64,000 bases of DNA, taken from positions 1-64,000 of the forward strand of contig JAFSDJ010000087.1 of NCBI GenBank assembly GCA_017436305.1, read 5' to 3'. A program made the translations under genes and the position numbers. The notes below the pieces were generated by a model. It searched no databases and was not told the origin of the DNA. It saw nothing but the letters and a program-made list of their open reading frames with translations. Below, in pieces: positions 338-27,208 of the stretch; within the stretch, counting starts at the first letter, position 1, and the number at the start of each line of letters is the position of its first letter. This DNA is from Lachnospiraceae bacterium. GTDB taxonomy: Bacteria > Bacillota > Clostridia > Lachnospirales > Lachnospiraceae.

Positions 338-346
338 ATAAGCTTT

Positions 347-452: not shown

Positions 453-1388
453 ATGATGCAAAAAAGAAACTTAATATTAGAATTTTGGAGATTCCTTTTC
501 TGTATGGCTGTATTAGGTCTTCATTTCTTTGCAAAAACAGATTTGAATTATTTTCATGCAGGATATCTTGGGGTGGAATTTTTCTTTATTGTTGCCGGTT
601 ATTTTGTGGGTACTTATTATAGTAAATACCAAAAAGGGAAGGATATAAAGGCAAGATTAAAATCAGTAGGACACTATGCTGTCAGCAGACTAAAAAGATT
701 GTATCCTTTTTATTTGTTGGCACTTCTTATAATCCTTGTTGTGCGAACTATATTAAATCACTATACCATACGGGATTTTATTACAGTTGTTAAAAGCTGT
801 CTTGCAGAGTTTTTCTTATTACAGTGGACACCACTTGGAAATGAAGTGTTAATAAGTGCAGGTTGGTTTGTCCCTGTAGTATTTTTTGGAGGTATTTTCT
901 TTGTACTTCTATTGGCAATTACTGATAAATTTTGTGGGTTTCTTTTAGCTCCGTTCATAAGCTTTTTCATTTATAGGTATTATTTTCTATTAATTGGGAA
1001 AATAGATGTGATTTTTTCTTATCACAGTGTAGTAAGAGGAATTGCAGGTATTGGCTTAGGAGTATTTGTTTATTTTTTGTGTAATGAAATGAAGGGGAGT
1101 TCATTAAAGATTCTAGAGAAAAAAAGGGTTCGGCTTTTTTTCGGTTGTATATCTTTGTTTATTTTTTTAGGTATTTTTATTTATACCAATTATGGAAGGC
1201 GCTCTAAGATTGATTTTTTAGTGATTGGATTATACGCTTTAGGATTAGCATTACTTATGAAGACGAATATAAGAGTGCCACAAAAACTGGAAAGAGTTTT
1301 ATTATTTCTTGGTAAAATAACATACCCAGTTTATATTTTCCAGATGCCTATAATTGAGCTGATTTTTGGAGTATTGCAAAAGCACTGA
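453..1388 (+). CDS. Acyltransferase 3 family membrane protein
   Basis: A 311-residue polytopic membrane protein of the acyltransferase-3 family, which moves acyl groups (often acetyl) onto envelope sugars. The N-terminus has the family layout: a first helix with a His in 'VLGLHFF' (the usual catalytic His position), then 'YLGVEFFFIVAGYF'. About nine further hydrophobic segments follow, and a basic loop lies near residue 65-80. It starts at ATG 453 with an AGGAA-type site upstream. The gene stands alone between the tRNA cluster and a convergent MutS-like gene, so its acceptor sugar cannot be inferred. Its isolated place beside possible integration repeats makes it a candidate accessory gene. 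Confidence 0.8.
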   Translation: MMQKRNLILEFWRFLFCMAVLGLHFFAKTDLNYFHAGYLGVEFFFIVAGYFVGTYYSKYQKGKDIKARLKSVGHYAVSRLKRLYPFYLLALLIILVVRTILNHYTIRDFITVVKSCLAEFFLLQWTPLGNEVLISAGWFVPVVFFGGIFFVLLLAITDKFCGFLLAPFISFFIYRYYFLLIGKIDVIFSYHSVVRGIAGIGLGVFVYFLCNEMKGSSLKILEKKRVRLFFGCISLFIFLGIFIYTNYGRRSKIDFLVIGLYALGLALLMKTNIRVPQKLERVLLFLGKITYPVYIFQMPIIELIFGVLQKH

Positions 1389-1413
1389 GTATAATAATGC
1401 GCAGTGCTTTTGC
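1376..1413 (+). terminator. Hairpin at the end of the acyltransferase gene
   Basis: A perfect 12-bp inverted repeat (GCAAAAGCACTG at 1376-1387 and its complement at 1402-1413) overlaps the stop codon. No clean U-tract follows, though TATTTTTAT lies 15 bp on. It probably separates the two convergent genes. Confidence 0.55.
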
Positions 1414-1437
1414 TGTGAGAAGAATATTTTTATATGC

Positions 1438-3036
1438 TTATGGTTTTTTTATAATACTCTCTAAATCCAGGCCGTAACGTCCTGCAATATCTTTGGCATA
1501 GCTTAAGCCATCAGGAGTGGTGCGGATGATTTTGTAGCTTCGTATGCCGTCTTCTTTATTTTCCATAAGAGCAGATAAATTATCAATTTTGCCTTTGTTA
1601 TCCGGATGGGCGTTATAAGCAGTTATCTGTTGCGGCAAATCATGTATATGAGTAACAAAGATACCGCCGCAGCCGATAACTCCAATGCCGGTCAGTACTT
1701 CAGAGGCAATGTAGCCTGCCTCTAAGCCACTTGTACTGGAAAAGGATTCATCCATTAAAAGCAGGTCGGTATCAGAAAGCTTTTTTAACACTTCTGATAA
1801 ACGTGCACATTCACTTTCCAATCGACCTTTTCCGTAATTGTTTTCGTCAGAAGAAGGAAAATGCGTAAATATACCGGTTACAGGGCTCATAAGGGCTTTT
1901 TTTGCCGGAACAAACAATCCTAATTGAAATAGAGCCTGTGCCATGCCGATAGAATAGGCAAAAATGGATTTACCACCGTGGTTGGGGCCTGTTACCAGAT
2001 AAAAACGTCCATTCTCATCAAAAGTAAAGGAATTTGACACAATTGACTGTTCAATGGATTTTCGTGCCAAAATGGGATTGTAAACGTCTGTAAGGTCACA
2101 TTTTTTTTCTTCAATAGGGACAATTTCAGGGCGACACATAGGAAAGCCCTTTTCTTTCATGGACAAAATGAATTTCACTCCGGCTGTTAAAAAGCGGATA
2201 TCATCTAACAATGCAGTAAAGTAGGAAGTATTAACACTAAAGTATTTTTGTAAGGTTGGTTCAAAATCACGGATGGATTTTGAAAAAATCGTATTAAAGG
2301 AAGATCGGATAGAATAGTTTAGTGCTTTTAAATCTTCACCATGAAGTCCCTTAGTAAGTGGATATAAAGGAGAAATCAGGGAGTTGGTGTCCAAAGGATT
2401 TCTCTTTAAGAGCTTTTCCATTAAGGTTCCGGCATGAAAGGGCTTTTCCTGAATGGAAATGATGCCGGCTTCTTTTACTCTTAAAGTTTCATCCAGATTT
2501 AAACCGATGGTAACGCTTTTAATACCACCAAAATGCACATTCATTTTAGCAAGCTCTTTGCGGAGATTTTCGTAGTCTTCTCCTTTGGAAATGGAAAAGA
2601 CAGTATCACGAAAAGCAATCATGCCTTCGGAATGAAGGGTAAGTCCTTCAAGGCCATTGGCGAATAAATCAATGATTTCCTGATACATTTCCAGATAGCG
2701 AATGGAGCTTAGAGCAGATTCTATGGAAAAGTCGCTATTCATGGCACGACGTAAATCATGGATATTGTGTATCATGTTGATGGATTCACAAAATACCTCA
2801 TATAAAGCAGGATTATTTACCAAATCCTCTACGATAGCCAGACGGTAAGAAAGTACGTCTGTATCTGTTGTAAAGTAATCTTTTAAGGCTAAATCAGAAA
2901 GCCCACGGTGACTTTCTTTGATTAGAATAATCATATCATCAATTTGTAAAGGGTGGATAAAGTGAAAATCCTTTAGTGGAACTTCTTTGCTCCGGTCATA
3001 TTTTGGTGGATATAAAAGGCGTTGATTTGGTCCCAT
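1438..3036 (-). CDS. Orphan MutS-like ATPase (MutS core and ATPase domains only)
   Basis: A 532-residue protein with a C-terminal MutS-type ABC ATPase. The Walker A loop GPNHGGKS lies at about residues 350-357, Walker B is LLLMDES, the signature-like stretch is 'SFSSTSGLEAG', and there is a conserved TH in 'FVTHIHDLP'. The N-terminal 300 residues are helical and look like a MutS core/lever region. The mismatch-reading domain I and connector domain of true MutS (over 800 residues) are absent, so a role in ordinary mismatch repair is unlikely. It begins with ATG 3036, preceded on its own strand by GGGAGG. The gene is monocistronic. Related short MutS-like ATPases of unknown role occur in clostridia. 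Confidence 0.75.
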   Translation of the reverse strand: MGPNQRLLYPPKYDRSKEVPLKDFHFIHPLQIDDMIILIKESHRGLSDLALKDYFTTDTDVLSYRLAIVEDLVNNPALYEVFCESINMIHNIHDLRRAMNSDFSIESALSSIRYLEMYQEIIDLFANGLEGLTLHSEGMIAFRDTVFSISKGEDYENLRKELAKMNVHFGGIKSVTIGLNLDETLRVKEAGIISIQEKPFHAGTLMEKLLKRNPLDTNSLISPLYPLTKGLHGEDLKALNYSIRSSFNTIFSKSIRDFEPTLQKYFSVNTSYFTALLDDIRFLTAGVKFILSMKEKGFPMCRPEIVPIEEKKCDLTDVYNPILARKSIEQSIVSNSFTFDENGRFYLVTGPNHGGKSIFAYSIGMAQALFQLGLFVPAKKALMSPVTGIFTHFPSSDENNYGKGRLESECARLSEVLKKLSDTDLLLMDESFSSTSGLEAGYIASEVLTGIGVIGCGGIFVTHIHDLPQQITAYNAHPDNKGKIDNLSALMENKEDGIRSYKIIRTTPDGLSYAKDIAGRYGLDLESIIKKP

Positions 3037-3357
3037 AGGTAAGCCTCCCGTCTATACAATGTTAGCTTTTTTTTAATTGTATCAAATTGTAAAAAAGAAA
3101 ACCAGTGTTATAAACAGAGATACATGAAATATAAGGAAAAGCCTAAGAAAGCTAGACAATAAGGGCCTTCTCTGATAAAATGAGAAACAGCATGAAAAAC
3201 GCTATTTCTGCGTGAATGACATGAAAAAAGGAAAAAATGAATGAAAAAAGAACTGGAACAGGTCATGTATGGTGATATGTAATATTCCATAATAAATAGG
3301 GAATTTACTATATAGTAAGGGAAATGTGGAAAATATTAACGAAGAAGGAGAAGTAAA
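3037..3357. other. Divergent intergenic region with a 14-bp palindrome
   Basis: This 321-bp stretch lies between two divergent genes. The clearest signal is the perfect palindrome TTACTATATAGTAA at 3305-3318, about 40 bp before the transporter start, which could be an operator or part of a -10 region. The transporter has a good AAGGAG site at 3346-3351. I see no convincing gene or structured RNA. Confidence 0.45.
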
Positions 3358-5298
3358 ATGAACGAAAACAAGGAATTTAAGCCATTTGTACCGGCGGATA
3401 AAACAATGCCGGAGTTTACAGTAACATCTATTGTACTGGGTATTCTACTGGCGGTTATATTTGGAGGGGCAAATGCTTATTTGGGACTGAGAGTAGGTAT
3501 GACTGTATCAGCTTCTATTCCGGCGGCAGTTATTTCTATGGGAATCATTCGCATGATTTTAAAGAAAGAGTCTATTTTGGAAAATAATATGGTGCAGACC
3601 ATCGGTTCAGCAGGTGAATCCGTAGCAGCGGGAGCTATTTTTACGTTGCCGGCTTTATTTTTGTGGGCAAAGGAATGGGGAACAGCAGCACCATCCTTAG
3701 TGGAAATTGCGATTATTGCATTTATTGGTGGTGCACTTGGTATTTTATTTATGGTACCTCTTAGAAAAGCTTTAATTGTGCAAGAGCACGGAACTTTACC
3801 ATATCCGGAAGGAAAAGCCTGTGCGGAAGTATTAGTAGCAGGTGAGGAAGGTGGAGCTAAGGCGTCTACTGTATTTGCAGGTTTGGGAATTGCAGCAGTA
3901 TACAAATTTATTGCTGATGGGTTAAAAGCCTTCCCAAGTGAAGTACATTATGAAATTCCGGCATATAAGGGATCCGGAATTGGTATGGATGTGTTACCGG
4001 CATTATTAGGTGTTGGTTATATTTGTGGACCAAAAATTTCCTCTTACTTATTTTCAGGTGGTATTTTAGGATGGTTTGTACTTATGCCCCTGATTGTATT
4101 ATTTGGAGCAAATATTACATTATTCCCGGCAGATGTAAGCGTTGCAAAATTATATGCAACCGGTGGTTCTTTTGCAATCTGGTCCAATTATATTAAATAT
4201 ATTGGTGCCGGAGCAGTAGCTTGTGGTGGTGTTATCAGCTTAATTAAATCCTTACCACTGATTATTACAACCTTTAGAGATGCATTAAAGGGGTTTGGAA
4301 AAGGTACAGCTACTAACGAAAGAACAAATCAGGATCTGGATATTAAGGTGATTATTGGTGGAATTGTTTTATTAGCATTGGCTATCTGGCTTGTACCGGT
4401 TATTCCGATTAATTTGTTTGGTGCATTTTTAGTTGTTGTTTTTGGTTTCTTCTTTGCAACTGTTTCTTCAAGAATGGTAGGACTTGTTGGAAGTAGTAAT
4501 AACCCGGTTTCCGGTATGACAATTGCGACTTTATTAGTTGCTTCTTTGGCATTAAAGGCAACCGGTATGGTAGGACAGGCCGGAATGACTGCTGCCATTG
4601 CAATTGGTGGCGTTATTTGTATCGTAGCGGCTATTGCCGGAGATACTTCACAGGACTTAAAAACAGGTTATATTTTAGGTGCTACACCAAAGAAACAGCA
4701 GATTGGTGAAATTATTGGTGTATTTGCTTCTTCCATCGCGATCGGTGGTGTATTGTATTTATTAGATATGGCATGGGGGTATGGTTCAGCAGAGCTTCCG
4801 GCACCGCAGGCAACTTTAATGAAAATGATCGTAGAAGGTGTTATGGGTGGAAATCTTCCTTGGACTTTAGTAGGAATTGGAGCATTTATCGCCATTATCG
4901 TAGAAGTTTTAGGAATTCCGGTTCTTCCATTTGCAATCGGATTATATCTGCCGGTTCACTTAAGTACACCAATGATGGTTGGCGGTATTGTGAAATGGGC
5001 CATTGATAAGAAGAAAAACATGGATGAAAAGAGAAAGAAAGACGTTACTGAAAACGGTATTCTTTACAGCTCAGGTCTTATTGCAGGCGAAGGCTTAGTT
5101 GGTATTTTATTAGCAATTCTGGCAATTATCCCAACAGGCAGCGGTTCATCTGTGGGAGATATAGTTGGAAACTTCTTACCGGAAGCACTTCCAATCTTAA
5201 CTGATGCCAATGTAGGAAATATTGTTGGCTTAGTAGCATTTGCATTATTAACTGTTTCACTTTGGAAATTCTGTTTTAGAAAAAGCAAAAAGGTTTAA
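3358..5298 (+). CDS. OPT family oligopeptide transporter
   Basis: A 646-residue protein with about 15 hydrophobic segments and the OPT-family pattern. Features include 'GGANAYLGLRVGMTVSASIPAAV' early on, 'GSAGESVAAG' near residue 83, 'LPYPEGKACAEVL' near 145, and 'AGDTSQDLKTGYILGATPKKQQIG' in the second half. OPT proteins are proton-coupled importers of oligopeptides, or of metal chelates in the YSL branch. The family's bacterial members are usually 550-680 residues, so it is full length. It heads a three-gene unit with a PqqD-like protein (17 bp on) and a methyltransferase, which suggests a cargo that is also processed or modified. The substrate is unknown. Confidence 0.92.
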   Translation: MNENKEFKPFVPADKTMPEFTVTSIVLGILLAVIFGGANAYLGLRVGMTVSASIPAAVISMGIIRMILKKESILENNMVQTIGSAGESVAAGAIFTLPALFLWAKEWGTAAPSLVEIAIIAFIGGALGILFMVPLRKALIVQEHGTLPYPEGKACAEVLVAGEEGGAKASTVFAGLGIAAVYKFIADGLKAFPSEVHYEIPAYKGSGIGMDVLPALLGVGYICGPKISSYLFSGGILGWFVLMPLIVLFGANITLFPADVSVAKLYATGGSFAIWSNYIKYIGAGAVACGGVISLIKSLPLIITTFRDALKGFGKGTATNERTNQDLDIKVIIGGIVLLALAIWLVPVIPINLFGAFLVVVFGFFFATVSSRMVGLVGSSNNPVSGMTIATLLVASLALKATGMVGQAGMTAAIAIGGVICIVAAIAGDTSQDLKTGYILGATPKKQQIGEIIGVFASSIAIGGVLYLLDMAWGYGSAELPAPQATLMKMIVEGVMGGNLPWTLVGIGAFIAIIVEVLGIPVLPFAIGLYLPVHLSTPMMVGGIVKWAIDKKKNMDEKRKKDVTENGILYSSGLIAGEGLVGILLAILAIIPTGSGSSVGDIVGNFLPEALPILTDANVGNIVGLVAFALLTVSLWKFCFRKSKKV

Positions 5299-5315
5299 GC
5301 TTTAGGAGACTAAAA

Positions 5316-5669
5316 GTGAAGAAAGAAAAAAAGAATTTTATGGATTATATTCCTGTCTGTAATCCCGGCTATAGCTGGGATGCAGATAAAAAAGGAATTG
5401 TTACCGTTCATGTAGTAAATAAAGGATTTTATAACTGGCTTGCACAAAAGCTTTTTAAAAAGCCCAGAATCAGTCATATTGCATTAGATGAGTATGGGAG
5501 CTTTGTATGGCGACAAATGGATGGAAAGCGAAGTGTTTATGAGATTTCCAAGCTGGTAGAGGCTCACTTTGGAAAGAAGGCAGAGCCGGTTGTGGAAAGA
5601 CTCGTACAGTTTTTCAGAATTTTATATCAGAATAAATTTATCGGATATGTGAAAGAAAAGAAAGCATGA
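5316..5669 (+). CDS. PqqD-like small protein (RRE-type fold)
   Basis: A 117-residue protein. Its central part ('ISHIALDEYGSFVWRQMDGKRSVYEISKLVEAHFG') matches the PqqD fold, the peptide-binding RiPP recognition element. GTG at 5316 is chosen as start because AGGAG sits 7 bp upstream; the next ATG would drop the basic N-terminus. It overlaps the following methyltransferase by 4 bp (ATGA), so the two are translationally coupled. No precursor peptide or radical SAM enzyme is visible nearby. In PQQ and RiPP pathways such proteins deliver a peptide to a modifying enzyme; here the partner could be the methyltransferase or the OPT transporter, which is inference. Confidence 0.75.
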   Translation: MKKEKKNFMDYIPVCNPGYSWDADKKGIVTVHVVNKGFYNWLAQKLFKKPRISHIALDEYGSFVWRQMDGKRSVYEISKLVEAHFGKKAEPVVERLVQFFRILYQNKFIGYVKEKKA

Positions 5670-6442
5670 CAGAGTTAGAAGAATATTATAATAAATTTAA
5701 TGAAGAAAAACGTCTTACAAGGCGGCATGGACAGGTAGAGTATATTACTTCCATGAAGTATATACACGAATATCTAAAAGTGTTTGAAAGCCCTGCCATT
5801 TTGGATGTGGGTGCCGGAACCGGAAGATATTCTGTTGCCCTTGCGAAAGAAGGATATGATGTAACAGCTGTAGAGCTTGTAAAGTATAATTTGGGGATTT
5901 TAAAGAAAAAAAACAGTACAGTGAAGGCTTATCAGGGAAATGCTTTAAAGCTTTCCAGATTTAAAGACAACAGTTTTCATATGACGTTAGTGTTTGGTCC
6001 CATGTATCATTTGTTTTCATTTGAAGATAAATGTAAGGCTCTTTTGGAGGCAAAACGGGTAACAAAGCCAGGCGGTGTCATATTGGTTGCCTATTGTATG
6101 AATGAATATAGTGTTTTAACCTATGCATTTAAGGAAAACCACATAAAAGAATGTCTGGAGGAAAATAGGCTTACAGAGGATTTTCACACTGTTTCAAAGA
6201 AGGAAAATCTGTATGATTATGTACGGATAGAGGATATAGACAGGTTAAACGAAGCCACAGGTCTTAAACGGATGAAGCTTATATCAGCTGATGGTCCTGC
6301 AAACTATATGCGGCCGGTTTTAAATGCAATGGATGAAGATACCTTTCAAAAATTTGTAGTATATCATCTGGCTACCTGTGAAAGACCGGAACTATTAGGT
6401 GCCGGTGCACATACGGTTGATATTTTAAAAGTTGAAAAGTAA
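5666..6442 (+). CDS. Class I SAM-dependent methyltransferase
   Basis: A 258-residue Rossmann-fold methyltransferase. Motif I is 'ILDVGAGTGRYSVALAKEG' near residues 40-60, the acidic residue after strand 2 is in 'VTAVELV', and motif IV is around 'DNSFHMTLVFGPMYHL'. The substrate is not evident; the sequence looks like the broad Methyltransf_11/25 group acting on small molecules. It starts inside the stop of the PqqD-like gene (ATGA) and closes the transporter operon, ending in a strong terminator. Coupling to a peptide-binding protein makes a peptide or peptide-derived substrate plausible but unproven. Confidence 0.85.
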   Translation: MTELEEYYNKFNEEKRLTRRHGQVEYITSMKYIHEYLKVFESPAILDVGAGTGRYSVALAKEGYDVTAVELVKYNLGILKKKNSTVKAYQGNALKLSRFKDNSFHMTLVFGPMYHLFSFEDKCKALLEAKRVTKPGGVILVAYCMNEYSVLTYAFKENHIKECLEENRLTEDFHTVSKKENLYDYVRIEDIDRLNEATGLKRMKLISADGPANYMRPVLNAMDEDTFQKFVVYHLATCERPELLGAGAHTVDILKVEK

Positions 6443-6447
6443 GTTTA

Positions 6448-6494
6448 AAAAAATAGGAAGAGACAATGATTGGACCACTCTTCCTATTTTTTTG
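6448..6494. terminator. Bidirectional terminator between the methyltransferase gene and bioY
   Basis: AAAAAATAGGAAGAG (6448-6462) pairs with CTCTTCCTATTTTTT (6478 onward). An A-tract on one side and a T-tract on the other serve both convergent genes; the bioY stop lies within it. Confidence 0.9.
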
Positions 6495-7035
6495 TGTTAA
6501 TTTTTACCAAGGCTCGTTGGAGCGGGATGGAAATGGCAGATGCGCCTATACATTTTACAATATCCATAGGAATATAAGGCAGGATAGCGGTAATCACTAA
6601 AGCCTTTAAATTCATTGATGTCTGGAGATACATAAAAAGAGCACCTGGTAAATAGATACAGGGGATGCCAATACCAATTGTAACCAGGCAGTAACGTTTT
6701 AGGCAAATGGATCTACCTTTTAACAGAGAAATCAGATACACAGCTAAAAGAAATCCGAACATATATCCGCCGGTAGGTCCTGCTAACACAAAGAAGCCCC
6801 CTCTGCCTCCTGAAAATACAGGCAGACCACATGTTCCAATGAAAATCCATACAAGAACGGTGGAAATTGCCTGAGTGGGAGTTAAGATTAATGCAATCAG
6901 ATTAATAACAAATGTTTGCGCGGTAAGCCCAATGGAGCTAAGGGGCAGGGGAATGGTAATATAGGAAGAAATGCTAAGTAATGCCGATAAAAGTGCCATT
7001 TTTGTTAGGTCAAAGGTTGTCCATTTTTTTTTCAT
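6484..7035 (-). CDS. bioY: Biotin transporter BioY (ECF S component)
   Basis: A 183-residue integral membrane protein with six hydrophobic segments. It carries BioY signatures: 'PLPLSSIGLTAQTFVINLIALIL' near residues 28-50 and 'GGRGGFFVLAGPTGGYMFGFLLAVYL' near 76-101. BioY is the substrate-binding subunit of energy-coupling-factor biotin uptake; the shared EcfA/EcfT module is not in this window. The gene is monocistronic with its own consensus promoter, and the length is typical. No obvious BirA palindrome was found upstream. Confidence 0.95.
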   Translation of the reverse strand: MKKKWTTFDLTKMALLSALLSISSYITIPLPLSSIGLTAQTFVINLIALILTPTQAISTVLVWIFIGTCGLPVFSGGRGGFFVLAGPTGGYMFGFLLAVYLISLLKGRSICLKRYCLVTIGIGIPCIYLPGALFMYLQTSMNLKALVITAILPYIPMDIVKCIGASAISIPLQRALVKINTKK

Positions 7036-7073
7036 AAGAGAAAATACTCCTTCTTTGATTGGAAATCCATTTT

Positions 7074-7103
7074 ATTATACGAAGAAGTTGTTTAGCATGT
7101 CAA
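7074..7103 (-). promoter_or_regulatory. bioY promoter (SigA type)
   Basis: On the minus strand, TTGACA (7098-7103), an 18-bp spacer and TATAAT (7074-7079) lie about 40 bp before the bioY start. Both hexamers are perfect. Confidence 0.85.
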
Positions 7104-7171
7104 TGAACATTGCTTTTTACTTTGTGTAATCAATAAAAAACATAATAAATGTACCAAAAACATTTCTTTGC

Positions 7172-7200
7172 TTGACAATAAATCCAACAGTTTATTATAC
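7172..7200 (+). promoter_or_regulatory. Promoter of the ABC-F gene
   Basis: TTGACA (7172-7177), a 17-bp spacer and TTATAC (7195-7200), about 31 bp before the start codon. It gives a very short leader, so antibiotic-type leader attenuation is unlikely. Confidence 0.75.
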
Positions 7201-7231
7201 TTGAGAAGTTGATAATTTTAGGAGAGAATGT

Positions 7232-8788
7232 ATGAGTATTTTAAACGTTGAACATTTATCCCATGGATTTGGGGACAGAGCAATTTTTCAGGATGTTTCC
7301 TTTCGATTATTAAAAGGTGAACATATTGGGTTAGTGGGAGCTAACGGAGAAGGAAAATCTACTTTTTTAAACATCGTAACAGGGAAGCTTATGCCTGATG
7401 AAGGAAAAATAGAGTGGGCAAAAAATGTCCGGGTAGGGTACCTTGACCAACATGCAGTATTGGAAAAAGGTATGACAATAAAGAATGTGCTTGATAGTGC
7501 ATTTGCCTATTTATTTGAAATGGAAGCCAGAATGAATGAAGTATGCGATGCTATGGGAAGTGCTTCTGAACAGGAACTTGAGAACCTTATGGAAGAACTG
7601 GCTGTAATACAGGATACTTTAACATTACATGATTTTTATGTAATTGATGCTAAAGTAGAGGAAGTGGCACGTGCTCTAGGATTGGACGGAATTGGACTGG
7701 ATAAGGACGTAACGGAATTAAGCGGTGGACAGAGAACAAAGGTGCTGTTAGGAAAGTTACTTTTGGAGAAACCGGATATCCTTCTTTTGGACGAGCCTAC
7801 AAACTATTTGGATGAACAGCATATTACGTGGCTTACCAGATATCTTCAGGAATATGAAAATGCCTTTATATTAATATCCCATGATATTCCTTTTTTAAAC
7901 AGTGTTATTAACTTGATTTATCATATGGAGAATCAGGAATTAAACCGCTATGTGGGCGATTATAGTAAGTTTGAAGAAGTTTATGCCATGAAAAAAGCCC
8001 AGCAGGAAGCTGCTTATAAGAGACAGCAGCAGGAGATTAGGGATTTAGAGGACTTTGTAGCAAGAAATAAGGCAAGAGTTTCCACCAGGAACATGGCAAT
8101 GTCAAGACAGAAGAAGCTTGATAAAATGGAGAAAATTGAAAAGGTTTATGAAAAACCAAAGCCGGAATTTTATTTTAAAGAAGCAAGAGTATCCGGTAAA
8201 TGTGTATTTGAAACAACCGACCTGGTTATTGGTTATGAGGAGCCTTTAAGTAAAGAGTTAAATCTTAGAATGGAAAGAGGAGAAAAAATTGCATTAATTG
8301 GTGCTAACGGAATTGGAAAAACCACCCTTTTAAAAAGTATTTTAGGATTACAGAAGCCACTTTCAGGAAAGGCACAGTTAGGGGACTATTTGGAAATTGG
8401 ATACTTTGAGCAGGAAGGGGATTATGCTAATAAAACAACCTGTATTGAAGAAATCTGGAAAGAATATCCTTCCTTTTCCCAGTACGAGGTTCGTTCTGCC
8501 TTGGCAAAATGCGGACTTACTACCAAGCATATTGAAAGTCAGGTAAGAGTGTTAAGTGGTGGAGAACAGGCGAAAGTGAGATTATGTAAACTAATCAATA
8601 GAGAAACCAATTTACTACTTTTAGATGAGCCTACCAATCATTTGGATCAGGATGCCAAAGATGAGCTAAAAAGAGCACTGAAAGAGTATAAAGGAAGTAT
8701 TTTATTAATCTGTCATGAGCCGGAATTTTATCAGGATATTGTTACAGATGTATGGGATTGTAGCAGATGGACAACTAAAATACTATAG
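7232..8788 (+). CDS. ABC-F family ATPase
   Basis: A 518-residue protein with two ABC domains and no membrane segment. Domain 1 has Walker A GANGEGKS (36-43), LSGGQ and LLLDEPTN; domain 2 has GANGIGKTT, LSGGEQ and LLLDEPTNHLD. Between them is a charged interdomain linker ('KKAQQEAAYKRQQQEIRDLEDF...') of the P-site tRNA-interaction type. ABC-F proteins act on the ribosome, as translation factors or as ribosome-protection resistance proteins. The sequence looks closest to the YbiT/YkpA-like housekeeping group, but this is by eye. It is monocistronic with its own promoter and the AGGAGA site at 7221. Confidence 0.9.
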   Translation: MSILNVEHLSHGFGDRAIFQDVSFRLLKGEHIGLVGANGEGKSTFLNIVTGKLMPDEGKIEWAKNVRVGYLDQHAVLEKGMTIKNVLDSAFAYLFEMEARMNEVCDAMGSASEQELENLMEELAVIQDTLTLHDFYVIDAKVEEVARALGLDGIGLDKDVTELSGGQRTKVLLGKLLLEKPDILLLDEPTNYLDEQHITWLTRYLQEYENAFILISHDIPFLNSVINLIYHMENQELNRYVGDYSKFEEVYAMKKAQQEAAYKRQQQEIRDLEDFVARNKARVSTRNMAMSRQKKLDKMEKIEKVYEKPKPEFYFKEARVSGKCVFETTDLVIGYEEPLSKELNLRMERGEKIALIGANGIGKTTLLKSILGLQKPLSGKAQLGDYLEIGYFEQEGDYANKTTCIEEIWKEYPSFSQYEVRSALAKCGLTTKHIESQVRVLSGGEQAKVRLCKLINRETNLLLLDEPTNHLDQDAKDELKRALKEYKGSILLICHEPEFYQDIVTDVWDCSRWTTKIL

Positions 8789-8795
8789 AATTTAC

Positions 8796-8825
8796 TTGTA
8801 ATTTATATGTAAATTGGATTATAAT
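8796..8825 (+). promoter_or_regulatory. Promoter upstream of the DUF3006 gene
   Basis: TTGTAA (8796-8801), an 18-bp spacer and TATAAT (8820-8825). The predicted leader to the start at 8988 is about 155 nt, long for a 72-residue protein; I see no recognisable riboswitch fold in it. Confidence 0.6.
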
Positions 8826-8987
8826 AGAGAAGGAAAAGCAAAAGGGCTTTGTGAACTTAGGGGATAGGTTTACAGAGTTCTTTGTTTGTGTAAATGGCTT
8901 TTAAAGCAAAAATTCAATATGTAGTCTACATAACATTAATATTATTGGGGAAACAAAAGGGATAGGCTAGAAAGGAAGATTAGAAAC

Positions 8988-9206
8988 ATGTTAGTAATAG
9001 ACCGCTTTGAAGAAAATATAGCAATTTGCCAAAAGGAAGATAAAACCTTAGTGAAAATTCCAAAGTACAAATTACCATTACAGATAAAAGAAGGAGATTT
9101 TATCACAACAGATTCTAAAGGTGTTTATGTAATTGCAAAAGAAAAAACAGAGGAAAAGAAGCAGGAAATCCATGAACGATTTCATAGGCTGTTTAAAAAT
9201 ACATAA
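8988..9206 (+). CDS. DUF3006 domain protein
   Basis: A 72-residue protein beginning 'MLVIDRFEENIAICQ' and continuing with 'VKIPKYKLPLQIKEGDFI', the pattern of the small DUF3006 family, a mini beta-barrel-like protein of unknown function in Firmicutes. It has a good AAAGGAAG site and its own terminator, so it is a single-gene unit. In other clostridia DUF3006 genes often sit beside secreted hydrolases or signal-peptide proteins; here the neighbours give no clear clue. Confidence 0.8.
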   Translation: MLVIDRFEENIAICQKEDKTLVKIPKYKLPLQIKEGDFITTDSKGVYVIAKEKTEEKKQEIHERFHRLFKNT

Positions 9207-9392: not shown

Positions 9393-10523
9393 ATGGGAAT
9401 TTTTAATAAAAAAGGGGAAAGCTGTTTCGAAGCTGAAAATATAGTGAAAGATATGGAAAAACTTTTCGCAGCACTTAAAAACCAGACGGAAGCCGCTTCC
9501 AAAAGGAAAATTGATAAAGTACAGTTTGTACTGTTGCTGGGAGGAGTATCTGTTTGTAGAAAAATTCCTGGAATTCATAAACATATGGGCTATGAGGAAT
9601 TATATGTATGTGAAAGTGAAGAAGACAAGGCAAATGTAAAAGCACATTTACAGAGAATGTATGGAATTGAAAATAAAGATGACTTATTGGCAGTCTGTAA
9701 CAGAATGTATTCTTCTGATGAAGATTATTTACAGTTTGAAACATTCTGGGAAGGAAAGCCTGCTTTTGATGTAAAGCAGTTAAATGACCAGGGACGGGAA
9801 ACCTTTGAAGCCTGTAAAAGCTTTGCAAAGCTGTTTGAACCTCTTGTTAAACATGGTGGTTTTTTCGCATGGGACTGCAATGAAAGAATCGGGCTTTTAA
9901 GGGCAGCCCATGCCTGCGATATTTTATCAGAGGAGGATTTTTGGGAGCTTACGGTACCTCTTAGCGTAGAAGCTGCAACCAGGTACGATTCCTGGATGGA
10001 ATTTGCCATAAGTTGTTTGTGTGGTTCCGTATATTTTATGTTCTGCCAATGTGGCATGAAGGAAGATGGAACGAAACAGTTTTATGAAATAAACAGACAG
10101 CTAATTGTACATCTTCTTGATAAAGATGGTGCATGGGGACGAAATGAATGGTTTACCTATGAGACAAAGAAGTTTTTAAAGGGAAAAGATGATATTGTAG
10201 AGCTTTTGAAAAACTGGGAAGGTCCGGAAGGCTGTATTGCTACAGACAGAATTGTGGTGGATGGCTGTAAGGTTGGCTATATGTACAGAGAACAGACGGA
10301 AAATGAATGGGACAGCGGCTGGCGTTTTATGGCTGGAGACGAAAGCGAAGAATATATGAATAATGCAGACAATTCAGGCATTTATGCTTTAAATACTATA
10401 TGCAATTATGATAAGGACATTATGAATTTCCTAAGCTCGCCATATGGAAATGCATTTTTCAGAGATGATGATGGAGAGTTTAAATGGGAACAATTAGGAA
10501 GGGAAGAAAAAAATAAAAAGTAG
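9393..10523 (+). CDS. DUF1266 - DUF2185 (Imm33-like) two-domain protein
   Basis: A 376-residue cytosolic protein. The middle ('WDCNERIGLLRAAHACDILSEEDFWEL...AATRYDSWMEFAISCLCG') matches DUF1266, a family named from Enterobacteria. The C-terminal 100 residues ('ATDRIVVDGCKVGYMYREQ...WDSGWRFMAGDESEEYM') match DUF2185, which includes immunity protein 33. I chose ATG 9393 over the upstream GTG 9378 because AGGAG (9383-9387) lies between them at the right distance. Both domains occur with polymorphic-toxin immunity genes, but no toxin is nearby, so the role is open. It is followed 9 bp on by the PAP2 gene. Confidence 0.75.
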   Translation: MGIFNKKGESCFEAENIVKDMEKLFAALKNQTEAASKRKIDKVQFVLLLGGVSVCRKIPGIHKHMGYEELYVCESEEDKANVKAHLQRMYGIENKDDLLAVCNRMYSSDEDYLQFETFWEGKPAFDVKQLNDQGRETFEACKSFAKLFEPLVKHGGFFAWDCNERIGLLRAAHACDILSEEDFWELTVPLSVEAATRYDSWMEFAISCLCGSVYFMFCQCGMKEDGTKQFYEINRQLIVHLLDKDGAWGRNEWFTYETKKFLKGKDDIVELLKNWEGPEGCIATDRIVVDGCKVGYMYREQTENEWDSGWRFMAGDESEEYMNNADNSGIYALNTICNYDKDIMNFLSSPYGNAFFRDDDGEFKWEQLGREEKNKK

Positions 10524-10531
10524 GTGGATTT

Positions 10532-11086
10532 ATGATAAATAGCATTACGGAGTGGGAAATCAATGTGTTATTGTGGATTCAGGAGCATATAAGAGTCTCT
10601 TTCCTGACTCCTGTCATGCAGTTTATTACATCTCTTGGGGATAAGGGATTTATTTGGATTATGGTTTGTGTCTTTCTAATTTTATTTAGAAAAACAAGAA
10701 AGATTGGAATCGTGGCAGCCGTTTCCCTGGCACTGAATGGGCTGATTGTCAATCTGGTGCTAAAAACAAGAATAATGCGCATAAGACCTTTTATTTTAGA
10801 GGAGCAATTAGAGCTTATTACTCAAATTCCAAATGATTATTCTTTTCCTTCAGGGCATACAAGCGCAGCTTTTGCAACAGCTGTAATTTTGTTTATGGGG
10901 CTACCAAAAAGGATTGGAATTCCGGCAATGGTGTTAGCTGTTTTTATGGGATTGTCCAGATTGTATGTAGGGGTGCATTTTCCCACAGATGTGCTGGCAG
11001 GGGCTTTGATAGGTATTTTGGCGGCTATGTTTACATGGTATTTTTTTAAAAAATATATTTTTAAGGATTTACAAAAATTACAATAA
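10532..11086 (+). CDS. PAP2 family phosphatase, membrane-bound
   Basis: A 184-residue membrane protein with the three phosphatase motifs: K-x6-RP in '[10 protein letters not shown]', PSGH in '[12 protein letters not shown]', and SR-x5-H-x3-D in '[16 protein letters not shown]'. It fits undecaprenyl-pyrophosphate or phosphatidylglycerol-phosphate phosphatases, with the active site facing outside. About five transmembrane segments are visible. AGGTGG precedes the start. It lies 16 bp before a cell-wall amidase gene, consistent with an envelope role; the exact substrate cannot be read from sequence. Confidence 0.88.
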
Positions 11087-11102
11087 GAAAAAGGAGAAAG
11101 TT

Positions 11103-23202: not shown

Positions 23203-23275
23203 GGGCCACTAGCTCAGGTGGTAGAGCACTTGACTTTTAATCAAGTTGTCCGGGGTTCGAGTCCCCGGTGGCTCA
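23203..23275 (+). tRNA. tRNA-Lys (TTT)
   Basis: Acceptor GGGCCAC pairs with GTGGCTC (23268-23274) with one G-U pair; the anticodon loop CTTTTAA gives TTT. Last of the operon. Confidence 0.97.
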
Positions 23276-23278
23276 CGA

Positions 23279-23421: not shown

Positions 23422-23450
23422 TTGACAGCATATATTACATTTTTTATACT
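23422..23450 (+). promoter_or_regulatory. Promoter of the DUF4178/DUF350/aminopropyltransferase unit
   Basis: TTGACA (23422-23427), a 17-bp spacer and TATACT (23445-23450), with the same hexamers as the tRNA operon promoter, 55 bp before the first gene. Confidence 0.85.
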
Positions 23451-23505: not shown

Positions 23506-23952
23506 ATGACAGAAGAGTTATTGAATTTAAGGCAATATCAAACTATTAAAATTGGATGGAAAACATATACTGTCTGGGCAATGGTGAAGTTTACAGAGGG
23601 GAATTCCTATTGGCAGGAGTATGTGTTAAGGAGTACCAAAGGCGACAACGTTTATTATTTAGACGTAGAGCCTGCGGGAAAAGTGGCACTTCATGAAATG
23701 GTTCAGGAAAAGCTTGTACCGGATATGTTTATACAGTATGGGAGAAAGAAATATGAGCTTTTTCAAAAGGGTACAGCCAAAGTAGATTATTATTTTGGAT
23801 TTTCAGACGTGTATCAGTGGGAAAAGGTTTCTTATTATGAATATTTAGATGTAAAGAAGGAAAAAGAACTGTTTACCATTGAAGTATGGCATGATACTAC
23901 AGAATGTAGCATAGGGCGTTATATTCCCATTGATAAGATAAGTATTATATAA
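23506..23952 (+). CDS. DUF4178 protein
   Basis: A 148-residue soluble protein that consists of a single DUF4178 domain: 'IKIGWKTYTVWAMVKFTEGNSYWQEYVLRS...VYYLDVE', 'GTAKVDYYFGFSDVYQWEKVSYYEYLD', 'IEVWHD'. DUF4178 is a beta-rich domain of unknown function that recurs beside DUF350 membrane proteins and spermidine-synthase-like enzymes. It is the first of five co-directional genes that start after a tRNA terminator. The ribosome site is weak (AGGGA). The function is unknown; the context suggests an envelope or polyamine-linked role. Confidence 0.8.
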   Translation: MTEELLNLRQYQTIKIGWKTYTVWAMVKFTEGNSYWQEYVLRSTKGDNVYYLDVEPAGKVALHEMVQEKLVPDMFIQYGRKKYELFQKGTAKVDYYFGFSDVYQWEKVSYYEYLDVKKEKELFTIEVWHDTTECSIGRYIPIDKISII

Positions 23953-23994
23953 ATTTGTTGAATTTTGTAATGAGAAGATTGTAGAGGGAAGGAT

Positions 23995-25071
23995 ATGCAT
24001 TTAAGACAAGGTCAGGTTATTTATGTAACCGGCACTGAGTATACTGTTTGCGGAATGATTGCATTCAAAGAGGATACTTGGAGCTGGGAAGAGTATAAGT
24101 TAAAAAGCAACATAGGGCAGACGGAATGGCTTAGTGTTGAGGAGGATGATGGAGTTCTTATTTATTCTATCTACAGAGAAAGATATGACATACCAAATAG
24201 CAGCAGTATGAATATTATGATAGATGGAGAAAATTTTGAACTTTATGAAAAGGGTAAGGCAACCGTTACAGATTATTTTGGCCAGGTTGATGTGGACCGA
24301 TACGAGCGATGTGCCTATACCGAATATGCCAACGCTACGAAGGACAGATTTGTATCTTTTGAAAGCTGGGATGGCGAGATAGAAAAATCTACAGGAGTTC
24401 TTTTGAGAGCAGAACAGGTGCAGATTACGGAGGAAATAAGACAGGTTTCTTCTTTCGGAGGCTCAGGTTTTTCTTTTTCCGGTGGCGAAGGAAGTGGCAG
24501 TGGTTTAGGAAACAGTGTGAGCAAAATAGTGGGAATTGGTATTCTTCTCATATTTTTATTACCTATGATGTCAACGATACTTAACGGTTTAAAGAGCAAC
24601 CAGTTATCCTCTTATTTGGAAAACAGCAGTTACTTTACATACGTTACTTCGGTGACAAATTCCACCAACAATAAAAAGGCAAAGGTTTATGAAACCACAT
24701 TGTCCATTGAAGAAGCTGTAAAGATGATTATAGATGGAGTACCGGAGAATATTGAAACGGTATCTGAGGTTGCAAAAGAGGAAGGCGAAGAGGGAGACAA
24801 TAGTGTAGGGCTTAGTACTTCAAAAGAATATGCTTATGTATACCTTTCAGAAGACGGTAAAACTTACGTTCAGGTTTCCAGTAAATCATTTGTTTCGCAA
24901 AATCAAAATCCTTATCGCAGTCGTTACAGACGAAACAGATACTATCGTACATATTCCATGGGAAGCTATGGAAACACCAATTCGTCTTATACAAGTTATT
25001 TAAATTCTGCAAGACAAAGCAGTGTTAGTTCCAGAACATCTTCCGGTGGCGGAACAAGTTATGGAAAGTAA
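23995..25071 (+). CDS. DUF4178 protein with a transmembrane segment and low-complexity tail
   Basis: A 358-residue protein. Residues 1-145 repeat the DUF4178 domain of its neighbour ('YVTGTEYTVCGMIAFKEDTWSWEEYKL', 'GKATVTDYFGQVDVDRYERCAYTEY'). A Ser/Gly-rich linker follows (about 150-175), then one transmembrane segment (about 180-200), a soluble region, and a Ser/Tyr/Arg-rich tail ('RSRYRRNRYYRTYSMG...SSGGGTSYGK'). It probably anchors the DUF4178 module at the membrane. GGAAGG precedes the start. Its partners are the two DUF350 proteins and the membrane aminopropyltransferase downstream. Confidence 0.78.
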   Translation: MHLRQGQVIYVTGTEYTVCGMIAFKEDTWSWEEYKLKSNIGQTEWLSVEEDDGVLIYSIYRERYDIPNSSSMNIMIDGENFELYEKGKATVTDYFGQVDVDRYERCAYTEYANATKDRFVSFESWDGEIEKSTGVLLRAEQVQITEEIRQVSSFGGSGFSFSGGEGSGSGLGNSVSKIVGIGILLIFLLPMMSTILNGLKSNQLSSYLENSSYFTYVTSVTNSTNNKKAKVYETTLSIEEAVKMIIDGVPENIETVSEVAKEEGEEGDNSVGLSTSKEYAYVYLSEDGKTYVQVSSKSFVSQNQNPYRSRYRRNRYYRTYSMGSYGNTNSSYTSYLNSARQSSVSSRTSSGGGTSYGK

Positions 25072-25097
25072 GGGATTATAAAGGAGGAGAAAAGAGT

Positions 25098-25295
25098 ATG
25101 TGGATGGAGTTGTTAGAAACAATCATTTTTGGTGTCTTTGGACTTGTTATGCTGTTCTTAGGGAAATTCATTATTGATTTATTTGTTCCCTATGATTTTC
25201 CTAAGGAAATCAAAGAGAAAAATGCAGCAGCCGGATATATGATAGCAGGCATTTTTATTTCTATTGCACTTATTATCAGAACAGTAATTATTTAA
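25098..25295 (+). CDS. DUF350 membrane protein (copy 1)
   Basis: A 65-residue protein with two hydrophobic segments (about 5-30 and 44-65) separated by 'VPYDFPKEIKEKNAAAGYMIAG', the conserved loop of DUF350. In most bacteria DUF350 proteins are about 130-140 residues with two such repeats, so each of the two small genes here looks like a half-length unit. They may assemble as a heterodimer. An AAAGGAGG site precedes ATG 25098. Function unknown. Confidence 0.8.
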   Translation: MWMELLETIIFGVFGLVMLFLGKFIIDLFVPYDFPKEIKEKNAAAGYMIAGIFISIALIIRTVII

Positions 25296-25307
25296 AAGGA
25301 GGCCAAT

Positions 25308-25511
25308 ATGACAGCAATATTATTTGAATTATTAGAAGGTGTTTTATATGTAGCAATTGGTATTGTATTTTGCTTAATTGGCTACAAAATATTAGCCGCA
25401 GATAAACATTATGATTTAAACTATGAAATTGACAATCACAATAAGGCAGCAGGTATTATGGTGGCAGGTTTATTTATTGCCATTGCTATTATTATGAGTG
25501 GTACATTATAA
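25308..25511 (+). CDS. DUF350 membrane protein (copy 2)
   Basis: A 67-residue sister of the preceding gene with the same layout: hydrophobic segment, loop 'YDLNYEIDNHNKAAGIMVAG', hydrophobic segment. The spacing is 12 bp and the ribosome site AAAAGGAGG is strong. The paired half-length arrangement, against the usual fused double-repeat DUF350, suggests that the ancestral gene was split or not yet fused. It lies 16 bp before the aminopropyltransferase gene. Confidence 0.8.
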   Translation: MTAILFELLEGVLYVAIGIVFCLIGYKILAADKHYDLNYEIDNHNKAAGIMVAGLFIAIAIIMSGTL

Positions 25512-25527
25512 GAAAGTGTAAGTAAAA

Positions 25528-27042
25528 ATGAAAAAAGAAGAATTTGACGGTCGTTTATTGTTAGTTACCACACTTTTTATTTCCATATGTTCTATTGTTT
25601 ATGAATTAATGATAAGCAGTATAAGTACTTATTTAAATGGTGACAGCATTAAACAGTTTTCCATTACCATTGGCCTTTATATGAGTGCTATGGGAATCGG
25701 TTCTTATTTGTCAAAATATGTGAAGAAAAATTTATTTCTTAAATTCATAGGAGTCGAAATATTTACAGGAATATTAGGAGGGTTTTCCGCCTTCCTTTTA
25801 TTTATGGTAAATATTTATACGGACATATATGATTTGATTATGTACATCATCATTTTGGCAATTGGTATATTAGTAGGACTTGAAATTCCACTTTTAACAA
25901 GAATTATTGAGGAAAATGACAGCAATATCCGAGTAAATCTTGCCAATATTTTTACCTTTGATTATATTGGAGGACTGGTTGGGTCTTTGGCATTTCCGCT
26001 TCTTTTATTCCCTAAGCTTGGATTTGTCACCACGGCTTTTTTGGTGGGAACCATTAATATATGTGCGGCACTGCTTATTTTAGTTCGTTACAATAAGTAT
26101 ATTGAAAAAAGCAAACAGGCTTTTTCTTTTGCCTTTATCGCATTTTTTATTTTGGGTTTCTTTTTAATTTTAGGAGGTAAGATTACAACAGAAATTGAGG
26201 AAGGGTTGTATAGAGATGATGTGATTTATTCTGAGCAGACTTTATATCAGAAAATAGTTATGACAAAGCATAAGGATGATTTACGTCTGTTTTTAGATGG
26301 AAATATACAGTTTTCTTCCAAGGACGAATACCGTTACCATGAAGCGTTGGTACAGATTCCATTTTTGTACAGTGAAAATCATAAAAGAGTATTGATTTTA
26401 GGTGGTGGTGATGGTCTGGCGGTCAGAGAAGTTTTGAAATATGAGGATGTGGAGGAAATTGTATTAGTAGACATTGATCCTGCAATGACAGAGCTTTGTA
26501 GCACGGATCCTCAGATTATTGCATTAAATGAAAATGCGCTGACTAATGAAAAAGTAACTGTTTTAAATGAAGACGGATACCAGTTTGTGGAAAATAACAC
26601 AGAGCCTTTTGATGTGATTATTGTGGATTTTCCGGACCCGAATACGGAATCCTTAAATAAACTGTATACCAATGTATTTTACAATTATGTAAAAGCAAAC
26701 CTGGCACCGGGAGGCGTGGTGGCAGTACAGTCTACCAGTCCATATTATGCAACCAATTCTTTTTGGTGTATTCATAAAACAATAAAAACCCAGTTTGAAA
26801 ATGTAATTCCTTACCATGTGCAGGTTCCGGCTTTTGGAGATTGGGGATTTAATCTTGCTTTCAATGGGGAGCGTGCCAGGAAAGAACTGACTGTGGAAAC
26901 AAAATATCTTACAGAGGAAAATATGGATGGTTTATTTGCTTTCGGTAAGGATGAAATGGCTGTGCTCGATACAGTAGAAATCAACGCCATGTTTAAACCG
27001 CAGCTTATTACTTATTACAATGAAGATGTGGAAAACTGGTAA
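25528..27042 (+). CDS. Membrane-embedded spermidine-synthase-like aminopropyltransferase
   Basis: A 504-residue protein with six or seven N-terminal transmembrane segments (about 10-220) and a C-terminal spermidine synthase domain (about 235-500). The domain shows 'LILGGGDGLAVREVLKYEDVEEIVLVDIDP' (decarboxylated-SAM site) and 'IIVDFPDPNTESLNKLYTNVFYNYVKANLAPGG' (the D-x2-D-P motif with the catalytic Asp position). Soluble SpeE is about 280 residues; the fused membrane form is a distinct group. No S-adenosylmethionine decarboxylase gene is visible nearby. It would transfer an aminopropyl or related group at the membrane; the acceptor is unknown. It completes the DUF4178/DUF350 unit. Confidence 0.85.
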   Translation: MKKEEFDGRLLLVTTLFISICSIVYELMISSISTYLNGDSIKQFSITIGLYMSAMGIGSYLSKYVKKNLFLKFIGVEIFTGILGGFSAFLLFMVNIYTDIYDLIMYIIILAIGILVGLEIPLLTRIIEENDSNIRVNLANIFTFDYIGGLVGSLAFPLLLFPKLGFVTTAFLVGTINICAALLILVRYNKYIEKSKQAFSFAFIAFFILGFFLILGGKITTEIEEGLYRDDVIYSEQTLYQKIVMTKHKDDLRLFLDGNIQFSSKDEYRYHEALVQIPFLYSENHKRVLILGGGDGLAVREVLKYEDVEEIVLVDIDPAMTELCSTDPQIIALNENALTNEKVTVLNEDGYQFVENNTEPFDVIIVDFPDPNTESLNKLYTNVFYNYVKANLAPGGVVAVQSTSPYYATNSFWCIHKTIKTQFENVIPYHVQVPAFGDWGFNLAFNGERARKELTVETKYLTEENMDGLFAFGKDEMAVLDTVEINAMFKPQLITYYNEDVENW

Positions 27043-27049: not shown

Positions 27050-27078
27050 TTGACAGAGTAAAATAATTACAGTATAAT
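27050..27078 (+). promoter_or_regulatory. tRNA-Leu(TAG) promoter, perfect consensus
   Basis: TTGACA (27050-27055), a 17-bp spacer and TATAAT (27073-27078), 50 bp before the tRNA. Confidence 0.9.
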
Positions 27079-27128: not shown

Positions 27129-27208
27129 GCGGGTGTGGCGGAATTGGCAGACGCGCCAGATTTAGGTTCTGGTGGGCGACCGTGCAGGTTCAAGTCCTGT
27201 CACCCGCA
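27129..27208 (+). tRNA. tRNA-Leu (TAG)
   Basis: Acceptor GCGGGTG pairs with CACCCGC (27201-27207); the anticodon loop TTTAGGT gives TAG, and a long variable arm marks a class II tRNA. It has its own promoter and terminator. Confidence 0.96.

Follow-up and report, generated by a model that had tools for sequence, protein, structure and literature searches.

A five-gene module at positions 23506-27042 of the window, the 64,000-nucleotide stretch of Lachnospiraceae DNA analysed here (GenBank assembly GCA_017436305.1, contig JAFSDJ010000087.1), encodes two DUF4178 proteins, two half-length DUF350 proteins and a membrane-embedded relative of the aminopropyltransferase SpeE. We propose, with a probability of roughly 0.36, that the module is a membrane-bound unit for the aminopropylation, dependent on decarboxylated S-adenosylmethionine (dcAdoMet), of the C-terminal lysine of a protein tail at the outer membrane face. 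The proposal draws on computed properties, namely gene content and order, donor supply by the S-adenosylmethionine (AdoMet) decarboxylase SpeD, conserved residues, the acceptor motif, the lysine ending and the charge pattern. The gene association is already in print (PMC11237479, and reportedly Li et al. 2019). New here are the SpeD supply, a fusion of DUF4178, a transmembrane segment (TM) and a DUF4247-like domain, the lysine-ending tail and the predicted outside position of the catalytic domain. No report of a lysine tail or of outside topology was found among the matches listed in a literature search, judged by titles and the starts of abstracts, and a search of the main text of PMC11237479 for "lysine" gave no match.

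The module and its membrane enzyme

The genes and the domains of their products (lengths in amino acids, aa) are as follows.

23506..23952, + strand: gene 1 (P0001), soluble DUF4178 protein, 148 aa (Pfam PF13785, 52.5 bits, cut-off 25)
23995..25071, + strand: gene 2 (P0002), DUF4178-TM-DUF4247-like fusion with lysine-ending tail, 358 aa (DUF4178 70.8 bits, residues 6-135)
24592..24894, + strand: DUF4247-like domain of gene 2, residues 200-300, predicted extracytoplasmic (profile-profile match)
25033..25068, + strand: C-terminal tail RTSSGGGTSYGK of gene 2, ending Gly-Lys (GK), an ending conserved among proteins of the gene 2 type
25098..25295, + strand: gene 3 (P0003), half-length DUF350, 65 aa, N-half-like (PF03994 56.8 bits, cut-off 26, profile 4-65 of 133)
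25308..25511, + strand: gene 4 (P0004), half-length DUF350, 67 aa, C-half-like (PF03994 37.8 bits, cut-off 26, profile 6-64 of 133)
25528..27042, + strand: gene 5 (P0005), membrane SpeE-like aminopropyltransferase, 504 aa (Pfam Spermine_synth 137.8 bits; PRK03612 610.5 bits)
25555..26181, + strand: seven-helix membrane domain of gene 5, residues 10-218 (hydropathy and alternating Lys/Arg in 62 sequences)
26218..27039, + strand: catalytic domain of gene 5, residues 231-504, with GGGDG at 292-296, D367/D370 in DFPDP and VPAFGDWGF at 433-441 (invariant or nearly invariant columns, motif counts)

The five genes are co-directional by reading of their open reading frames (ORFs), with gaps of 42, 26, 12 and 16 nucleotides. 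Together with the Pfam and NCBIfam matches, this bears out the unit described in an initial annotation of this DNA, and the membrane SpeE, DUF350 and DUF4178 families are adjacent in one direction. Relatives were examined in a set of 80 related loci plus the window (81), in which DUF4178 lies in the fetched stretch of 73 and DUF350 in that of 69. More than half of the 81 loci are from Bacillota and many are close kin, so these locus counts are not independent. The conserved neighbourhoods rule out the random assortment that the initial annotation had named as a reason to doubt a joint system, and they support such a system; its statement that the families co-occur in many bacteria was right (PMC11237479).

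The gene 5 product exceeds the cut-off of the NCBIfam polyamine aminopropyltransferase family PRK03612 (NF002956) over residues 4-503 (610.5 bits, cut-off 472), and seven hydrophobic segments precede its catalytic domain, in agreement with the seven helices first annotated. Its AlphaFold2 (AF2) model has a mean confidence (pLDDT) of 93.6, and the best Foldseek match is 1uir, a T. thermophilus polyamine aminopropyltransferase (TM-score 0.78 over the target). Y240, Q241, D266, E267, the GGGxG motif, D349, D367, D370 and Q401 are invariant in 62 aligned enzymes, and D295 of GGGDG is nearly so. The catalytic and donor-binding roles of these conserved residues are presumed to be those of the soluble enzymes. 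A non-functional active site had also been raised as a point against the module; the putative catalytic aspartates D367 and D370 are invariant in all 62, and the site appears intact.

The acceptor-side motif is unlike that of soluble SpeE. The DxPDP motif occurs as DFPDP or DLPDP in 62/62 membrane enzymes and VP[STA]FGxWGF in 48/62, whereas soluble SpeE has DSTDP and [IV]PTYPxG (five enzymes parsed of eight loci tried). For example, the soluble SpeE of the window genome, on contig C59, shares the catalytic fold and the dcAdoMet-site residues with gene 5 but has no membrane domain, and it carries DSTDP and PTYPSG where the module's enzyme family has D[FL]PDP and P[STA]FGxWGF.

The distribution of Lys plus Arg (K+R) suggests on which side the catalytic domain lies. 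Mean K+R per loop, from the N-terminus, was 2.40, 0.02, 2.37, 0.10, 2.05, 0.44 and 2.81, followed by 1.42 after helix 7. The predicted inside loops together held more K+R than the outside loops in 62/62 sequences (means 9.5 vs 0.55), and every inside loop exceeded every outside loop in 43/62. The mean hydropathy of helix 7 over 19 residues was above 1.6 in 60/62. Seven crossings with the N-terminus inside would therefore leave the catalytic domain of gene 5 outside, and it is predicted on the outer face, where the tail should also lie. The outer face is pointed to independently by two features. First, a lipobox-like motif is present in 7/9 DUF4247 proteins (that of locus L124 is loose). Secondly, oxidases dependent on flavin adenine dinucleotide (FAD) encoded downstream have an N-terminal RR motif in 17/18 cases vs 23/317 other ORFs; the one scanned, at locus L072, matches Pfam Amino_oxidase. 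Cysteine depletion was considered as a further sign of an outside domain (0.94 vs 1.45 per 100 residues), with five soluble enzymes as the only comparison, and was not used.

Both half-length DUF350 proteins of the initial annotation are above the Pfam cut-off, each covering half of the profile. Genes 3 and 4 share a reading frame with a single TAA between them, and jointly they span positions 3-132 of the 133 in the profile. Gene 3 has a mean identity of 37% to the N half of fused DUF350 vs 32% to the C half, and gene 4 has 37% to the C half vs 29% to the N half. Over the 81 loci DUF350 occurs as a split pair in 22, as a fused protein of 130-170 aa in 19 and as a single shorter protein in 23. 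Since the split is common to 22 loci, it is not a sequencing error.

Gene 2 and the lysine-ending tail

The larger DUF4178 protein is a DUF4178-TM-DUF4247-like fusion. The DUF4178 domain and membrane anchor reported initially are both present, and the DUF4247-like part is an addition to that description. In the AF2 model of P0002 (mean pLDDT 78.9) a confident beta domain is followed by a helix at residues 175-197, an alpha/beta region at 204-301 and low-confidence tail stretches; the long helix is the predicted membrane segment. In profile-profile comparison with nine Pfam-positive DUF4247 proteins, the C-terminal core of gene 2 scored 83% (E 9e-6), and 96% when the tail was included. Controls gave 0.1% for DUF4178 against DUF4247, 0.3% for the reversed profile and 1.3% for the best of 30 column shuffles. 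Pfam DUF4247 (PF14042) had no match in P0002 at E up to 1 and none in the window genome; the region is therefore called "DUF4247-like", a name that reflects the profile-profile match and synteny. A Foldseek search with P0002 for the DUF4178 fold gave no match at E <= 0.001.

The synteny is as follows. In Frackibacter (L063), separate DUF4178, PspA, DUF2617 and DUF4247 genes precede SpeE, with DUF4178 identified by our own profile and the others by Pfam. DUF4247 was present in 9/249 genomes of the phylum, and the membrane SpeE adjoins it in 7 of 9 loci (one of these, L122, is apparently the same contig as L063), with DUF350 also adjoining in six of those seven. In L128-L130, two neighbouring genes encode the DUF4178 and the DUF4247-like part separately.

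The end of the tail has low model confidence, as disordered stretches have, yet it holds invariant residues. Proteins of the gene 2 type, that of the window included, end in GK in 46/47 cases vs 7/870 control ORFs. The lone exception, at L064, is the first fragment of a split gene, of which the second fragment ends in GK. A fixed rule was applied, in which a reading frame with its stop between DUF4178 and SpeE, or the DUF4178 protein itself, had to contain a hydrophobic stretch and end in GK or His-Lys (HK). It identified a tail in 63 of the 72 loci with DUF4178 upstream of the enzyme and in 0/208 control windows; at L079 it caught a mini-protein as an over-long 377-aa reading. In the other nine, inspection by eye shows GK or HK at the end. 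Two of them (L049, L099) were missed where the enzyme ORF start had been read too far upstream, one (L064) is split by a frameshift, and six (L069, L077, L088, L091, L096, L098) fell below the hydrophobicity cut. Thus, with 63 by rule and nine by eye, a membrane or exported protein whose last two residues are Gly-Lys or His-Lys is encoded at all 72 loci. The count left out nine of the 81 loci, which have no DUF4178 upstream. Three of these (L029, L051, L089) also have GK endings, and no such ending was found, where looked for, in the other six (L060, L065, L068, L075, L086, L087).

The ending persists through changes of scaffold, through fusion to DUF4178 and over very long branches. At the distant loci L067-L100, a small one-helix ORF ending in HK or GGK lies between DUF4178 and DUF350 (21 ORFs, 45-73 aa); no match to DUF4247 or a related profile was found at these loci, and none of seven such mini-ORFs, nor the 247-aa protein of L089, reached a Pfam cut-off. 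In Sphingobacterium, L074 and L100, it is a lengthened DUF4178 protein that ends in HK. The lysine ending is kept in loci of seven or more phyla and on two unlike scaffolds.

A later set was taken because GK/HK had been chosen after seeing the first data. It held 20 membrane-SpeE places from 18 of 296 genomes in the phylum of genome G479, which seems to be Actinomycetota, as G479 (L060) is from Atopobiaceae. Three Actinomycetota records were already in the first set. One of the 11 modules with DUF350 or DUF4178, L266, belongs to G479, which leaves 10 from new genomes. All 11 have a protein ending in lysine, as GK in eight (L256-L259, L262, L263, L265, L266) and as Thr-Lys (TK) in three (L260, L261, L264); for L256, L258 and L265 the tail emerged only when the frames were inspected by eye. 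Control genes ended in Lys in 115/706 cases, which gives a binomial p of 1e-7 for 10 of 11. At the remaining nine places (L267-L275) a script found no upstream GK/HK ending. VPxFGxWGF is kept in 10/11 of the module-linked enzymes (L265 has WGY) vs 1/9 of the others, a contrast that may be one tree split. Since eight of those nine lack VPxFGxWGF and two have a broken DxxDP motif, some of them may be inactive.

DUF4247 tails were compared with and without the enzyme in 62 of the 66 genomes with DUF4247 (G813, G877, G909 and G930 were left out). Among 75 proteins from 72 loci, GK ends 21/21 with an adjacent membrane SpeE vs 1/54 with none seen, although some stretches end at contig ends that could hide SpeE. 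In the genome of the one exception (L233), the other copy (L232) has SpeE. A tree of DUF4247 needs about one tail switch, so this contrast counts once and is weakened as independent evidence. In Bacilli (L119, L120, L176-L221, L234, L235), DUF350-DUF4247 clusters occur without the membrane SpeE, those scanned having DUF4178 and PspA; most of their DUF4247 tails finish with a basic run, for example GRITKRR, in place of GK.

Donor supply, proposed reaction and alternatives

SpeD (PF02675) was sought in 51 carrier genomes, that of the window and 50 of 80 related ones, and its places were combined with those of PF01564 after the 18 weakest PF01564 rows (E 6e-22 and weaker) had been left out. SpeD lies within 6 kb of the membrane enzyme in 36/51 carriers, only elsewhere in 11 (including L065, which is cut by a contig end) and nowhere in four; none had it in both places. 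Soluble SpeE was not found in 28 of the 36 carriers with adjacent SpeD. In Lachnospiraceae, SpeD is present in 7/8 carriers, the window genome included, vs 5/41 non-carriers (Fisher p 7e-5), some of these carriers being apparently the same contigs as in the related-locus set, with which this set overlaps. With SpeD beside the enzyme in 36 carriers and elsewhere in 11, the donor question largely dissolves.

The initial annotation had noted that no AdoMet decarboxylase is near, which holds for the module's contig. The genome nevertheless has one on contig C59, where a class 1a-type SpeD (TIGR03331, 395 bits, cut-off 256), soluble SpeE, agmatinase and NspC lie together. Its further remark that the donor is unclear for want of this enzyme does not stand, and a missing donor is ruled out by SpeD in the carriers, in trans in the window genome. 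The SpeD/SpeE route on C59 (L109, positions 1-9000 of that contig) stands beside NspC and a carboxynorspermidine synthase-like gene (433 bits, below its cut-off of 800).

In the proposed reaction, the decarboxylase, acting in trans in the window genome, would make dcAdoMet, and the membrane SpeE-like enzyme would move its aminopropyl group onto the side-chain amine of the C-terminal lysine, which offers the same aminobutyl amine as putrescine. The acceptor lysine would end the flexible tail of an anchored partner, here the DUF4178-TM-DUF4247-like protein and elsewhere a DUF4247 lipoprotein or a one-helix protein of 45-73 aa. The prediction places enzyme and tail alike on the outer face, and the disordered tail could reach the acceptor channel; DUF350 may be the membrane partner and DUF4178 the cytoplasmic partner of the complex. 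We infer the reaction, its acceptor, the membrane side, export of the donor and any envelope role from these features. Polyamine-type extension of protein lysines is known from deoxyhypusine formation and from the lysine-polyamine side chains of silaffins; the likeness lies in the extension of lysine, the enzymes and proteins are others, and no homology is claimed. Li et al. (2019, Biochem J) reportedly described an MFS-SpdSyn fusion with AdoMet decarboxylase and DUF350, whose acceptor was thought not to be putrescine, with none named. That system reportedly joins a membrane-SpeE fusion, SpeD and DUF350, as is seen here, and the difference is that an acceptor is now proposed.

The C-terminal lysine was proposed as acceptor because it has the aminobutyl amine, because the tail could reach the channel and because of the METTL13 precedent. 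Most spermine synthases seem to be strict for N-aminobutyl groups (PMC11107197), and the C-terminal domain of METTL13 is a spermidine synthase-related N-terminal methyltransferase (PMC6109062). On what the membrane SpeE fusion does, PMC12803844 says only that such bacterial proteins take no part in spermidine or spermine synthesis. The lysine ending, found across seven or more phyla, gives a concrete candidate acceptor for the membrane SpeE fusion. The "membrane polyamine modification" suggested initially fits in that an envelope-linked aminopropyl reaction is the best reading; it was too wide, and the lysine-ending tail is the likeliest partner.

Several points weigh against aminopropylation of the tail. 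First, no SpeD was found by Pfam in 4/51 carriers, and in control rows C. glutamicum lacks a PF02675 match although it matches NF002956, DUF4178, DUF350 and DUF4247. Secondly, use of the donor outside would require export of dcAdoMet, for which a transporter is only hypothetical. Third, the AF2 secondary structure of gene 5 gives residues 134-187 as one helix, and as a single crossing it would put the catalytic domain inside, out of reach of an outside tail; a hairpin is preferred because 54 residues are too long for one crossing and the invariant P157, P162 and G165 lie mid-stretch. Fourth, the DUF4247-DUF350 clusters without SpeE in Bacilli imply some SpeE-independent role of the partners. 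In addition, GK/HK was chosen after seeing the first loci, three of 11 later-set tails end in TK, 9/20 later-set enzymes have no adjacent DUF350 or DUF4178, and the DUF4247 tree, with few columns and long branches, shows one tail change, two SpeE changes and two independent pairs, a number too small for a test. Lastly, docking, rather than use as a substrate, may be what keeps the lysine conserved.

Docking is central to a doubtful but serious alternative, in which the acceptor is a small amine, or a lipid or polymer of the envelope, and the tail with its lysine merely docks or positions a partner. The conserved donor-site residues and an acceptor motif unlike that of soluble SpeE agree with it, as does the best structural match, a T. 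thermophilus enzyme of which entry 3anx is titled triamine/agmatine aminopropyltransferase. However, it does not by itself explain a C-terminal lysine on unlike scaffolds and fusions. It is improbable that the lysine is instead a pseudo-substrate in the acceptor pocket, leaving the enzyme idle until a surface domain senses envelope stress. A tail end of low confidence with invariant residues, and the PspA or Band-7 genes beside some modules, would suit such a role; SpeE-free clusters without GK fit a substrate and an inhibitor equally.

It is highly improbable that the enzyme uses AdoMet itself and methylates, as the spermidine-synthase-like domain of METTL13 does (PMC6109062). That no SpeD was found in C. 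glutamicum or in four of the 51 carriers would fit, but the enzyme has SpeD as its neighbour in 36, and SpeD is commoner in carriers than in non-carriers. The least credible reading is a plain spermidine synthase tethered to the membrane, as the NCBIfam family name polyamine aminopropyltransferase would have it; this is disfavoured by the different acceptor motif, by the canonical speD-speE-agmatinase cluster already in the window genome and by the experimental finding that bacterial homologues of the fungal membrane aminopropyltransferase fusion are uninvolved in spermidine or spermine synthesis (PMC12803844, citing Li 2019).

If the tail is indeed aminopropylated, many bacteria would have a post-translational modification of a new kind and would use a nucleoside donor outside the cytoplasm. 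A distinctly unlikely extension is a widespread modification in which the outward-facing enzyme extends the C-terminal lysine of surface tails with aminopropyl units from exported dcAdoMet, giving a surface protein-polyamine on which an exported FAD amine oxidase may act next in some lineages.

Genomic setting and neighbouring features

The window lies on contig C83 of a 2.6 Mb genome, 84% complete; the closest relatives with a name are Robinsoniella, Lachnospiraceae and other Clostridia. Three features border the module.

23203..23276, + strand: tRNA-Lys, upstream border of the module slot (ARAGORN)
23422..23450, + strand: promoter-like site of sigma-70 type, TTGACA-17-TATACT (11/12 consensus match; consensus alone, function not implied)
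27129..27208, + strand: tRNA-Leu, downstream border of the module slot (ARAGORN)

In genome G367 (same genus, 98% complete), which has no membrane-SpeE match, tRNA-Lys and tRNA-Leu are 338 bp apart; the module is thus a gain or loss at this slot. At L021, in a metagenome-assembled genome of Robinsoniella sp. that is the nearest named relative (enzyme 84% identical), tRNA-Lys and the module are separated by two extra ORFs (489 and 149 aa), which shows that the content of the slot is variable. The membrane SpeE is rare nearby, above the NF002956 cut-off in 8/298 genomes of the family and 5/147 of the class (the window genome in both). The consensus promoter of the initial annotation was found at 23422-23450, but the region shows no clear excess of promoter-like sites overall (22 vs 16.6 +/- 4.3 in shuffles). 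A perfect TTGACA-17-TATAAT site lies at 27050-27078, between the module and tRNA-Leu and just 5' of the latter.

The operons of Ravi et al. 2024 likewise hold 7TM-SpeE, DUF350 and DUF4178 in one operon, and the same section names DUF4247, DUF2617, PspA, AdoMet decarboxylase and an oxidase, partly for ATP-grasp sister operons (PMC11237479). The window differs in its split DUF350, in a DUF4247-like part fused to DUF4178 and in having neither PspA nor a cis SpeD. The CesT/Tir-PspA dyad of the Ravi operon was not found, there being no PspA in the 84% complete genome and no search having been made for CesT/Tir. The DUF4247-like domain may take the place of this dyad, as PMC11237479 says of the sister group, and the lipoprotein with a "Ctha_1186 domain" in that paper could be a tail protein.

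An envelope-stress system, as first suggested, receives only indirect support, from the PspA genes that lie in the clusters of some relatives. PspA is above its cut-off in 14/30 carrier genomes examined, and a search of the window genome, at 84% completeness, found none; dependence of the module on PspA was therefore rejected. A defence system was also rejected. The PADLOC match to mad2 of MADS covers only the SpeE-like core (residues 270-436 of 504), the other four module proteins had no PADLOC match, and no full-length mad2 match within a MADS cluster was found.

At L072 the FAD oxidase gene is followed by one for a membrane protein of about 340 aa (positions 10072-11091) without a Pfam or NCBIfam match; similarly sized genes come after the oxidase in several distant modules. 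At 60761-61798 of the window, a 345-aa ORF with many GNSSVEAR/GNSSVVAR repeats adjoins genes at 55883-63954 that are element-like by eye (integrase-like, repressor-like).

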